Of a DNA stretch of 50,139 nt, positions 43,063-47,647 are shown in pieces. The first letter of the stretch is position 1; each line of letters starts with the position of its first letter. The DNA comes from Actinomycetota bacterium (GTDB taxonomy: Bacteria > Actinomycetota > Acidimicrobiia > Acidimicrobiales > Ilumatobacteraceae). The notes beneath the pieces were generated by a model. That model was not told the DNA's origin, searched no databases, and was given only the letters and a program-made list of their open reading frames with translations. The DNA lies in the NCBI GenBank assembly GCA_026393575.1, contig JAPKZX010000060.1, forward strand, positions 1-50,139, given 5' to 3'. The position numbers and the translations under genes were made by a program.

Positions 43063-43734
43063 TCAGGGCGCAAAAGATGAAGCGGGCAAATCTGTCTCGC
43101 CATCGGCTATGCCTTGCACGATCCGGCGTGCTACGTGGAGGGGATCAAGACCAACAGGAAACTTCGGTGGAGTTCCTGCGATTGCTCGCGACGCTAACCC
43201 TGTTTCCGTGTGAGGCGGGCGAGCGTCAATCACTCTGATGCCAGATCGACGCGCCTCTCGCCCGAGCGCTTCATTAAATGAACGCGCGGCCGCTTTCGAT
43301 GCGCCGTACACAGACATACCTGGCAAGTTTTGTTCGGCAATGACACCAGAGATCCCAACGAGAACTGATCCTGTTGCCATGTTCTGAAGTGCTGCCTGCA
43401 TGAGAAAGATGTGACCGAATGTGTTTGTGAGGAATAGTTCCTCAACCGTGTCAACTGACGTTGTGTTGATTGGCCCAAAAGCAACAACACCCATGGCATT
43501 GATAACAATGTCTAACTTGCCGAATCGGCTAATCACTTCAGATACAACTGCCGTACTTGCCTCAGGAGAACGAAGATCAGCTCTGATATGGGAGGAATCT
43601 GCAATGTGGCCACGCGAGACGGTTACAACAGTGCATCCTCTGTCTTCAAGTTCACTGCGTAGAGCACTACCTAGACCACCGGTACCGCCAGCAATAAGGG
43701 CTGTTTTGTCTTCAAAGGTGAATGGTGTGGTCAT
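43063..43734 (-). CDS. Short-chain dehydrogenase/reductase (SDR)
   Basis: 223-residue classical SDR: cofactor motif GGTGGLG (about 16-22), INAMGVV (position of the NNAG motif), catalytic VYGASKAA with Tyr and Lys, and the serine in VGISGVI. NAD(P)-dependent oxidation or reduction of an alcohol or ketone. GAAGAG precedes the ATG at 43734. It appears to be a single-gene unit. Confidence 0.92.
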   Translation of the reverse strand: MTTPFTFEDKTALIAGGTGGLGSALRSELEDRGCTVVTVSRGHIADSSHIRADLRSPEASTAVVSEVISRFGKLDIVINAMGVVAFGPINTTSVDTVEELFLTNTFGHIFLMQAALQNMATGSVLVGISGVIAEQNLPGMSVYGASKAAARSFNEALGREARRSGIRVIDARPPHTETGLASRAIAGTPPKFPVGLDPLHVARRIVQGIADGETDLPASSFAP

Positions 43735-43872: not shown

Positions 43873-45141
43873 ATGAGTTTGATAATTCGAGACTTACTTT
43901 CTTCTGATATTGGTCCAGCCGTTCGGCTATTGGAGGAATGTCGTTCCTTGCCTGACACAAAACAGACCGATATTGCGCAATTTGTGAACGATGTTTCGTC
44001 GGGTGCACCTGGCGTGGTTGCAATTGACGGCGACCGAATCATCGGGGTGATTCAGGCGCGCGTTGTGTCTGATGATGCTTGGATAAATGTGGTGACAATC
44101 GATCCTGCTTGGCGGCACCAAGGGATTGGCTCGGGAATGTTGTTGCGTCTAGAAGACAAACTGATGCATCTTGGTGTTCGAAAAATTTCTGCATTGTTGT
44201 CTCCTTCTCAAGCGGGTGAAACAGCTCTCGTTAATCGTGGTTTTTCTGCAATTCATGACTTGATTTTGTATGAAAAAGTAGAGCCAATTGCGCCCACTGC
44301 TATGCGCATCGTTGATCAATATGGCGGAGAAATTTTGTCTCCCGACCTGTGGGATCGCGTGGCGGGTATGCATGCCGAGAAGAAAATCATTGATGGTCGT
44401 GTCGTAGCCCCATTGGCTGACCCAACGACCGCAGAGAGGGTTGGCGTGAAAGCACCAGCGACAGTTCTGCTTTTTGGTCCTCCAGGAACAGGTAAAACAA
44501 CATTTGCTAAAGCGATTGCCGGACGACTTGGTTGGCCGTTTATCGAGTTGCTCCCCTCCAAATTAGAAAGCGGGGGTGATTCAATGTCGTCAGAACTTCG
44601 TCAAGCAATGATGGAGTTACTGCAGTTAGAGCGAGCCGTTGTCTTTATTGATGAGTTTGATGAAATCGCATCTGCGAGAGAACGTAACCCGGCCACAAAA
44701 GGGGTAGTTAACGAGTTGTTAAAAATGATTCCTTCGTATCGCTCAACCCCCGGACACCTTTTAGTGTGTGCGACTAATTTTGTTGGTGACATTGATGCTG
44801 CAGTTCTGCGTCCGGGAAGATTTGACTTGGTGATTCCCATTGGACCACCAGACCTCACTGCACGTCTTGCACTATGGGAAGCTGCGCTGTCACGTGTGAA
44901 TCAACAAGGAATTGATATTGAAAAGGTTGCCAAAGCAACCGAGGGCTATACACCGGGTGATGTTGAGTTGGCCGCTCAACGGGCAGCCACTGCTGCATTT
45001 GATCGGATTCGTGAAGGTATCGAACCGTCATATATTTGTTCCGACGACATTGATGCTGCAATTGCTCGCACAAGGGCTTCAGTCACAGGCGAAATTCGCC
45101 AACGTTTTGGTGAAGAAGCTGAGCGGTTTGCTCGCGTGTAA
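43873..45141 (+). CDS. GNAT acetyltransferase fused to AAA+ ATPase
   Basis: 422 residues with AGGAAT upstream of the ATG. Residues 1-140 form a complete GNAT domain: VVTIDPAWRHQGIGSGMLLRLE (acetyl-CoA loop 81-88) and TALVNRGFSAIHDLILYEKV. Residues 145-422 form a classical AAA ATPase: Walker A GPPGTGKTT (202-210), Walker B AVVFIDEFDEIA (255-266), sensor asparagine CATN (302) and the arginine-finger block LRPGRFD (312-318), followed by a small helical lid. The two parts are in one frame with no stop between. This suggests a ring ATPase that remodels targets coupled to acetylation or acetyl-CoA sensing, which is inference. Known AAA proteins rarely carry GNAT domains. Confidence 0.88.
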   Translation: MSLIIRDLLSSDIGPAVRLLEECRSLPDTKQTDIAQFVNDVSSGAPGVVAIDGDRIIGVIQARVVSDDAWINVVTIDPAWRHQGIGSGMLLRLEDKLMHLGVRKISALLSPSQAGETALVNRGFSAIHDLILYEKVEPIAPTAMRIVDQYGGEILSPDLWDRVAGMHAEKKIIDGRVVAPLADPTTAERVGVKAPATVLLFGPPGTGKTTFAKAIAGRLGWPFIELLPSKLESGGDSMSSELRQAMMELLQLERAVVFIDEFDEIASARERNPATKGVVNELLKMIPSYRSTPGHLLVCATNFVGDIDAAVLRPGRFDLVIPIGPPDLTARLALWEAALSRVNQQGIDIEKVAKATEGYTPGDVELAAQRAATAAFDRIREGIEPSYICSDDIDAAIARTRASVTGEIRQRFGEEAERFARV

Positions 45142-45231: not shown

Positions 45232-45447
45232 ATGTTGAGAAAATTGAAATCACTGGGATATAGCGCAAATCTGTCTTATGCACTCGGATTCCTGTCAGTA
45301 ATCGCCAGTATCGTCATTTGGTTCACACAAGGTGGAACAGAAGCAGGTGAAGCAGGGGCAGCAGGCGAGCGGTTCGGAATCTTTATCGGTCTATGGGCAC
45401 CAACATTCATGTCCATCGGCAACGGCATCGACAACTTAAAAGACTAA
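45232..45447 (+). CDS. Small membrane protein
   Basis: 71 residues with AGAGG before the ATG. Two hydrophobic segments are visible (about residues 12-33, LSYALGFLSVIASIVIWF, and 47-62, RFGIFIGLWAPTFMSIG), separated by a Gly/Glu-rich loop. No family recognised. It follows the GNAT-AAA+ gene by 90 bp in the same direction. Confidence 0.65.
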   Translation: MLRKLKSLGYSANLSYALGFLSVIASIVIWFTQGGTEAGEAGAAGERFGIFIGLWAPTFMSIGNGIDNLKD

Positions 45448-46601: not shown

Positions 46602-46703
46602 TCCACGGAACTCTTGTCCTTATTGCTTCCGAGCGATTGATTGGGGAGCCCAAAGGGGTGCCTCGGTACAAAATTGTCACCCCCGTTTTTGAAGGACACA
46701 CCA

Positions 46704-47647
46704 ATGGCAAATGCATGGTTTGAAACAGTCGCAGAGGCACAACGTCGCGCAAAGAAGCGCTTGCCGAAGTCTGTTTATGGTGCGTTGATCGCAGGCTCAG
46801 AAAAGGGTCTCTCGACAGCTGACAACCTTGCATCTTTCGATCAACTTGGCTTTGCTCCACACGTTGCAGGTCTCTCGAATGAGCGCACCATGAACACCAC
46901 AATCATGGGTCAAGAGATTGGAATGCCGATCATCATTTCTCCGACTGGTCATTTTCGAACGGTCGTGACTGGGGCAGCCCATGGATTCCAGAAAAAGTTG
47001 ACCTGAAAGCTGCCATCAAATTGGCACCCGAAGTTCTTCAGAAGCCGGGCTGGCTTTTAGCCTTCGCAAAGACTGGTCGCATCCCCGATTTGACCGCTCC
47101 GAACATGGCCAAGCCAGGCGAAAAGGCACCCACATTCTTCGGTGCCTACTACGAGTGGATGCAGACCCCTCTTCCCACCTGGGAAGACATCGCATGGTTG
47201 CGCGAACAGTGGGGTGGCCCCTTCATGGTGAAGGGCGTCAGCCGCGTTGATGATGCAAAGCGCGTTGTCGACCTCGGTGCAACAGCTCTCTCCGTTTCAA
47301 ACCACGGTGGCAACAACCTCGACGGAACGCCTGCTCCTATTCGCGCGCTTCCTGCAGTTGCCGATGCAGTGGGTTCACAGATTGAAGTTGTTCTTGACGG
47401 TGGTATTCGTCGTGGTTCCGATGTTGTGAAAGCTCTTGCACTTGGTGCACGCGCTGTCATGATCGGTCGCGCCTACTTGTGGGGCCTCGCAGCAAACGGT
47501 CAAGCAGGTGTTGAGAACGTTCTCGATGTTTTGCGTGGTGGAATTGATTCAGCACTTCTTGGTATCGGCAAGTCATCAATTCATGATTTGAATCGTGATG
47601 ACGTTGTTGCGCCTGACGGATTCTTCCGTTCACTCGGCACGAAGTAA
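46704..47647 (+). pseudogene. mftD: Second mftD-like gene with internal 232-bp deletion
   Basis: The first 81 codons (MANAWFETVAEAQRRAKKRLPKSVYGALI... to IIISPTG) match the intact gene at 26013, then the frame is lost. From 46949 a different frame restores FSNGRDWGSPWIPEKVDLKAAIKLAPEVLQ and continues to a normal end (RSLGTK). Comparison with the intact copy indicates that 232 bp between two GACTGGT heptamers are absent, leaving one heptamer (46943-46949). A 7-bp repeat at both ends fits slippage or microhomology deletion, or a misassembly. Downstream protein sequence is nearly the same as the other copy but many synonymous codons differ, so it was kept by selection until recently. GAAGGA precedes the ATG. 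Confidence 0.85.

Follow-up and report, generated by a model that had tools for sequence, protein, structure and literature searches.

An actinobacterial protein family that joins a GNAT-fold domain to a Cdc48-type AAA ATPase

Introduction

What might a protein do that carries a GNAT domain and a classical AAA ATPase in one reading frame? The question is raised by a single gene in a stretch of 50,139 nucleotides (contig JAPKZX010000060.1 of an Actinomycetota bacterium), called the window in this study. A preliminary description, made from the letters of the window, considered this architecture unusual and suggested that it could couple acetylation or acetyl-CoA sensing to ATP-driven remodelling. 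As a whole, that interpretation of the fusion was partly supported by the analysis presented here.

Results

The gene and its domains

The frame runs from ATG to stop through 422 codons without interruption (Table 1). Pfam profiles recognised Acetyltransf_1 at residues 34-114 (E 3.4e-9; 37.4 bits against a cut-off of 20.7), as well as AAA at 198-323 (E 2.4e-28) and AAA_lid_3 at 347-386 (E 6.9e-8), both above their cut-offs. The gene is thus a true GNAT-AAA fusion with its main motifs complete, as had been claimed, and the residue numbering given earlier (R81-H-Q-G-I-G86, GPPGTGKT at 202-209, Walker B ending at E261, N302, RPGRFD at 313-318) proved right. A structure model of the window protein reached a mean pLDDT of 88.7 and a pTM of 0.72.

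Table 1. Coordinates of the fusion gene, its domains and motifs, and one neighbouring gene in the window
Feature	Position	Strand	Basis
GNAT-AAA fusion gene	43873..45141	+	422 codons plus stop; homologues in same order
GNAT-fold domain, residues 1-136	43873..44280	+	Pfam Acetyltransf_1 34-114; structure model
Asp67 in strand 4, candidate catalytic or ligand residue	44071..44073	+	Asp/Glu tracks intact CoA loop
CoA pyrophosphate loop RHQGIG, residues 81-86	44113..44130	+	Fits Gln/Arg-x-x-Gly-x-Gly/Ala
Stretch with Leu108 and Val120 (RimI: Glu103, Tyr115)	44194..44232	+	Alignment to 5isv
Linker, residues 137-158, conserved Gly151	44281..44346	+	Gly151 in 82/82 rows
Cdc48-type AAA module, lid and C-terminal helix, residues 159-422	44347..45138	+	Pfam, sequence, model, fold search
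Walker A GPPGTGKT, 202-209	44476..44499	+	Lys208 in 98/98 rows
Pore-loop-1 stretch 232-238, without aromatic-hydrophobic-Gly	44566..44586	+	Alignment
Walker B AVVFIDE, 255-261	44635..44655	+	Asp260, Glu261 in 98/98 rows
Sensor Asn302	44776..44778	+	98/98 rows
Arg fingers R313, R316	44809..44820	+	98/98 rows
Fixed C-terminus F-A-R-V, penultimate Arg421	45127..45138	+	Arg in 96/98 rows
Divergent short-chain dehydrogenase gene	43063..43734	-	Adjoins fusion in several relatives; local association only

Distribution and selection

Homologues that keep both domains in one frame and in the same order were found in other genomes at 95, 93, 63, 55 and 40% identity, so the junction is not an assembly artefact, a possibility that the preliminary description had named. 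Full-length homologues occurred in 8 of 32 genomes of the genus and in 29 of 396 genomes of the phylum sample, and named actinobacteria added many more (80 of 414 loci retained). Plasmids carried them as well: 22 records covered at least 80% of the query, and the genera among the matches listed comprised Rhodococcus, Streptomyces, Kitasatospora, Saccharopolyspora, Embleya, Tsukamurella and Paenarthrobacter. The fusion is an accessory but widespread family. It can no longer be called unusual, since the architecture recurs and RefSeq already gives it the product name 'bifunctional GNAT family N-acetyltransferase/ATP-binding protein'; proteins so named, for example in Rhodococcus opacus B4 and on Kitasatospora plasmids, share 40-43% identity over 99% of the query. 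That entry is a product name, and literature searches aimed at the GNAT-AAA fusion returned no study of such a protein among the matches listed. Searched for 'GNAT', PMC12839542 yielded passages on GNAT-TGT and PMC10853773 passages on DndF with GNAT, neither set concerning a GNAT-AAA protein. Phage origin was rejected: 108 of 50,697 phage records matched, none over 80% of the query, and 28 viral contigs matched over the AAA part and at most some of the linker.

Both halves are under strong purifying selection relative to the two nearest homologues (in genomes G025 and G009), with dN/dS values of 0.03-0.05; for the GNAT half they were 0.04-0.05, its synonymous changes being near saturation in comparisons with the window. 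A chance reading frame or an assembly fusion is therefore a negligible prospect, refuted by homologues that keep this order in many genera and on plasmids, and nothing was found in its favour.

Several individual copies deserve mention. Between the window and G025, synonymous divergence was higher in the GNAT half (43873-44280; ps 0.63) than in the AAA half (44347-45138; 0.43), which perhaps reflects recombination inside the gene. Contig C16 of G021 carries the fusion and dehydrogenase genes twice, head to tail (L133, 1019-3031 and 4376-6388), with identical proteins about 3.36 kb apart, representing a recent tandem duplication or an assembly error. In G007, a homologue of the window gene (83-87%) is split into three open frames on contig C16 (L136, 653-1837), the middle piece lying in another frame, and an intact paralogue (53%) lies on contig C12. 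Given the split copy, the fusion gene may be dispensable in that genome.

The family alignments hold 98 rows, the window protein included, and leave out the broken G007 copy (L012). The rows contain near-copies and are an uneven sample: 82 were gathered first (9 with a degenerate CoA loop) and 16 were added from the phylum survey (10 degenerate), 9 of the latter having been picked for low scores. The CoA loop was looked at in 20 of the 29 survey genomes with the fusion.

The AAA half

All classical AAA features (Walker A and B, sensor Asn, two Arg fingers and the AAA lid) are present in the window protein, and the Walker A Lys, the Walker B Asp-Glu, the sensor Asn and both Arg fingers were invariant throughout the alignment (98/98). 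The nearest solved chains by sequence were those of Cdc48/p97 (E 1.7e-62 for the whole chain; 112.4 bits to D1 and 101.6 bits to D2). In the fold search, whose rows span residues 140-421 and hence the AAA part, p97/Cdc48, FIGL1, spastin and Vps4 made up most of the best 50 rows (Z 25.1-27.6 over 243-275 residues). As these families were mixed among the best rows and the p97 rows often spanned D2, the fold did not narrow the assignment within classical AAA proteins. With one AAA module instead of two, the protein scored 131.1 bits against NCBIfam TIGR01243 (Cdc48/Cpa), far below the cut-off of 802.65.

An aromatic-hydrophobic-Gly motif at pore loop 1 is the usual mark of threading AAA unfoldases. 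The window protein reads E-S-G-G-D-S-M at residues 232-238 instead, and this stretch was free of aromatic residues in 93 of the 98 rows, the other five all having AAEYGL. Among control AAA domains, 10 of 11 carried an aromatic (KWVG, MWVG, MFVG, KFYG, KYVG) and one (L026) had MLVG. Cdc48 has MWYG in D2 and KMAG, without aromatic, in D1, so that the loss of the aromatic weakens the case for threading only a little. A literature search on this pore loop found no paper. ATP-driven remodelling, as proposed earlier, stays plausible; the aromatic motif of many threading AAA machines, however, is absent.

The GNAT half

The modelled GNAT half comprises β1-α1-α2-β2-β3-β4-α3-β5-α4 and one further strand, with a mean pLDDT of 63-75 at residues 101-140. 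Its P-loop, R81-H-Q-G84-I-G86, fits the GNAT consensus Gln/Arg-x-x-Gly-x-Gly/Ala quoted in a passage of PMC4964394. Within the superfamily the protein fell well short of the RimI family (NCBIfam TIGR01575, 24.7 bits against 86.4). On alignment to E. coli RimI (5isv), Leu108 and Val120 occupy the positions of Glu103 and Tyr115, the proposed base and acid of that enzyme (in a passage of PMC4964394), and no Glu at 108 or Tyr at 120 was present in any of the 98 rows, the window included.

The CoA loop was intact in 79 rows, that of the window among them, and degenerate in 19. The degenerate loops comprised ten rows of one clade, which includes a Rubrobacter genome; four connected rows from Brevibacterium, Tsukamurella and Propionibacteriaceae; single rows from Demequina, Brachybacterium and Embleya and the single row L155; and L102, from an Acidimicrobiia contig and cut at its end. 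A tree of the AAA half was built by a quick method after thinning at 90% identity (72 fusion rows, 15 of them degenerate, 5 rows lacking the GNAT and 2 outgroups; L079 and L102, cut by contig ends, left out). On this tree of unevenly sampled rows, which does not tell gain from loss, the loop state changed at least 6 times.

Two other positions go with the loop. An acid (Asp or Glu) at position 67 was found in 66 of 79 intact-loop rows vs 2 of 19 degenerate ones (46/57 vs 2/15 in the thinned set). For a Tyr at 132 or 133 the counts were 67 of 79 and 9 of 19. Intact-loop members thus seem to keep a site that the others have lost, which speaks against a GNAT half of purely structural use. The degenerate P-loop alone is no proof of lost CoA binding, since MtAAC(2')-Ic is an active enzyme with an atypical P-loop, as described in a passage of PMC4964394. 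The preliminary description had held that loss of acetyl-CoA-contacting residues across homologues would argue against acetyltransferase activity. Such loss was indeed found in the degenerate rows, and the RimI-type Glu and Tyr are missing from all; the acid that accompanies the intact loop, on the other side, is compatible with a working acetyltransferase site in intact-loop members.

Relatives without the GNAT domain and the C-terminus

Five relatives, namely L104, L106, L109 and L111 from Thermodesulfobacteriota and L107, filed under Myxococcota, keep the AAA half at 35-38% identity together with the C-terminal end and have 65-101 other residues in front of the matched part. The three that were scanned all matched the end of DUF4032 (positions 127/129-161 of 163) over 33-35 residues, L106 with 26.3 bits above the cut-off of 23.8, L104 (21.4) and L109 (19.7) below it; L107 and L111 align with these three. 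None of the five has an aromatic in pore loop 1. In the tree of the AAA half they fell inside the actinobacterial family, near the Rubrobacter clade, with direction and origin unsure because of a long branch and odd composition. A structure model of one such relative, built from 5 sequences, was poor (pLDDT 58), the five loci had no real neighbour gene in common, and a literature search on DUF4032 found no paper.

At the other end of the protein, the penultimate residue was Arg in 96 of the 98 rows, the remaining two (L079 and L102) being cut by contig ends, and the last residue was V, L, T, I, Y, F, M, A, W or, once, D. The five GNAT-less relatives likewise end in Arg followed by Y, I or F. 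This fixed C-terminus has Arg in place of the penultimate Tyr of the proteasome-activator ends HbYX and GQYL, and suggests packing in a ring or a docking site for a partner.

Gene surroundings

The preliminary description saw the gene as standing alone, upstream of a small membrane-protein gene that homologues might keep. The small gene exists as an ORF (45232-45447) and was matched in 9 of 61 genomes; it adjoins the fusion only in the window and in G009, that is, in 1 of 60 other genomes, so it is not a kept neighbour. It occurs without the fusion in G015 and G020, and the fusion occurs without it in G025 (87% complete). The first part of the claim stood: when 5261 ORFs from 86 loci, which form 50 groups at 80% fusion-protein identity, were clustered, no neighbour gene was conserved across the family. 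The flanks covered measured roughly 1.5 to 6 kb, or less where a contig ended.

The commonest cluster, with members in 8 of 50 groups, resembles by sequence the short-chain dehydrogenases, whose superfamily is very large, and for these reasons no operon is claimed. Among the matches listed, the dehydrogenase adjoins the fusion in G000, G009, G025, G021 (both copies) and G031. It is divergent in the window, G009 and G025; in G021 and G031 a related gene (42%) on the strand of the fusion lies immediately upstream. It lies 2.6 kb away in G010 and was not seen, among the matches listed, in the stretches examined of G036, G032, G057 or either G007 locus. In a search of 37 genomes, G011 and G018 had the dehydrogenase without the fusion, and G007 had it on another contig. 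The pairing of the dehydrogenase with the fusion is a local association. The flanking proteins that were scanned were this dehydrogenase, a 71-residue protein without Pfam match and a beta-lactamase-family protein. Further along the window, two plus-strand frames (46641-47006 and 47021-47647) match the FMN_dh profile (PF01070), the first at positions 1-72 and the second at 174-348. Some 100 profile positions in between have no match, and this FMN-dependent dehydrogenase appears broken. On the Rhodococcus plasmid pDK2 (L037, 799-8836), two Hsp20-family genes lie upstream of the fusion and a Dyp peroxidase and an encapsulin downstream, which was not a general pattern in the neighbour clustering.

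Discussion

The best explanation, which we hold tentatively and at somewhat less than even confidence, is a Cdc48-like ATPase whose GNAT domain serves as a client-recognising N-domain that usually binds acyl-CoA. The protein would be a soluble Cdc48-type AAA ATPase, probably a ring, with the GNAT-fold domain in place of the Cdc48 N-domain and the AAA half as its constant engine. GNATs recognise an N-terminus or a lysine, and the GNAT half would recognise a client protein in this manner. In most homologues acyl-CoA could be its ligand, acting either as a co-substrate or as a metabolic signal. Movements driven by ATP would then pull the client apart or rearrange it. Because the aromatic grip of pore loop 1 is missing, local conformational work or the disassembly of a complex is somewhat likelier than full threading. 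For the invariant C-terminal Arg, packing into the ring or docking of a partner is the probable role. In this scheme we infer that a ring assembles, that the GNAT recognises a client and binds CoA, and what kind of work is done.

The argument for this N-domain role lies in the pairing of a constant engine and C-terminus with a variable N-terminal domain, together with the Cdc48 N-domain, which binds adaptors and substrates (as stated in a passage of PMC6017811). The AAA motifs are invariant while the CoA loop has degenerated in 19 of 98 rows with at least six changes of state, the AAA half and the C-terminal end persist in five relatives from other phyla that have no GNAT, Cdc48/p97 is closest by sequence and among the closest by fold, and both halves are strongly constrained. 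Client recognition rests on analogy, since no client, partner or conserved operon was found. Against it stands the retention, in most homologues, of the loop, the acid at 67 and the Tyr at 132/133, as would suit an enzyme.

That retention belongs to the main rival, a bifunctional enzyme in which the AAA ring opens or presents a client protein and the GNAT acetylates it, a scheme we consider less likely than the first but possible for members with an intact loop. The GNAT fold of the structure model, the intact R/Q-x-x-G-x-G/A loop of the window and most other rows, the low dN/dS of the GNAT half against G025 and G009, and the acid and Tyr that go with the intact loop, possibly as alternative catalytic residues, all fit it. 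It is set back by the replacement of RimI Glu103 and Tyr115 by Leu108 and Val120, with neither Glu nor Tyr there in any row, by several lineages that combine a degenerate CoA loop with an intact AAA half, and by the absence of the GNAT from the five distant relatives.

Two partner-dependent readings are weaker still. An unfoldase that feeds the actinobacterial 20S proteasome, like Mpa/ARC or Cpa, is improbable. The fixed C-terminus would suit it, although the penultimate Arg is not the Tyr of HbYX or GQYL; Cpa also lacks HbYX, according to a passage of PMC6017811. The genome of the window has two PF00227 genes, and PF00227 was matched in 24 of 29 survey genomes with the fusion vs 140 of 367 without it (Fisher p 4.9e-6, relatedness not corrected), but this profile is not specific for the 20S proteasome, matching E. 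coli, B. subtilis and other controls (10 of 14). Five of the 29 genomes had no match, one of them (G326) being 100% complete in 4 contigs, nor did G009 and G025, which house the two nearest homologues, and 7 of 35 genomes lacked a match in all; an obligatory partnership with a proteasome is thus unlikely. That the protein is an anti-phage ATPase like IetA has very little probability. IetA has a classical AAA domain in common with the window protein, whose AAA part matches the IetA models (PADLOC, E 2e-30; NCBIfam IteA, 95.5 bits), yet the family cut-off lies at 510 bits. IetA works with a partner protease, and none was present among the three scanned flanking proteins nearest the fusion, nor did any neighbour cluster exceed 8 of 50 groups.

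Returning to the client-recognising N-domain, a wider version of it, which we regard as doubtful, would see here a AAA family with swappable N-domains. The GNAT would be an acyl-CoA-gated client reader that has become CoA-free in several lineages and is replaced by a DUF4032-like segment in other phyla, on an ATPase that lacks the aromatic grip, does not thread and has a fixed C-terminal Arg. If this holds, the family would offer a natural series, from an intact loop through a degenerate one to no GNAT at all, for studying whether a AAA machine is controlled by acyl-CoA or by an acetyl mark. It would also caution against giving every member the automatic name 'bifunctional acetyltransferase'. 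The architecture was already known through RefSeq naming; the present study adds that the CoA loop is degenerate in several lineages and that some relatives have no GNAT, and it describes the pore-loop-1 stretch and the fixed C-terminus.

Among known systems, the TmcA/NAT10 cytidine acetyltransferases also couple a GNAT to an ATPase in one chain; their ATPase, however, is helicase-like and precedes the GNAT. No TmcA family was present among the best 25 of 32 Pfam matches of the window protein. DndF, too, is an ATPase. A GNAT (DUF4338) is listed among the domains fused to DndF of the DNA phosphorothioate defence system in a passage of PMC10853773; both the GNAT family and the system are different there. 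RimI-type GNATs have the P-loop and the fold of the N-terminal part in common with the window protein, whose model, at low confidence, has one strand after helix 4, whereas RimI has β6 and β7 there (as given in a passage of PMC4964394), and the RimI Glu103 and Tyr115 are not conserved in the GNAT-AAA family. The central GNAT domain of mycobacterial Eis parallels the 19 degenerate homologues: according to a passage of PMC4964394 it has kept the fold, lost the P-loop Gln/Arg and is inactive as an enzyme, and, unlike the GNAT of the window, it is described there without an attached ATPase. Cdc48/p97 and the actinobacterial Cdc48-like Cpa come closest: their AAA module is the nearest match in sequence and one of the nearest in fold, and an N-domain likewise precedes it. 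The pore-loop-1 stretch differs from that of Cdc48, though Cdc48 D1 is also without an aromatic, and the window protein has a GNAT as N-domain and a single AAA module where Cdc48 and Cpa have two.
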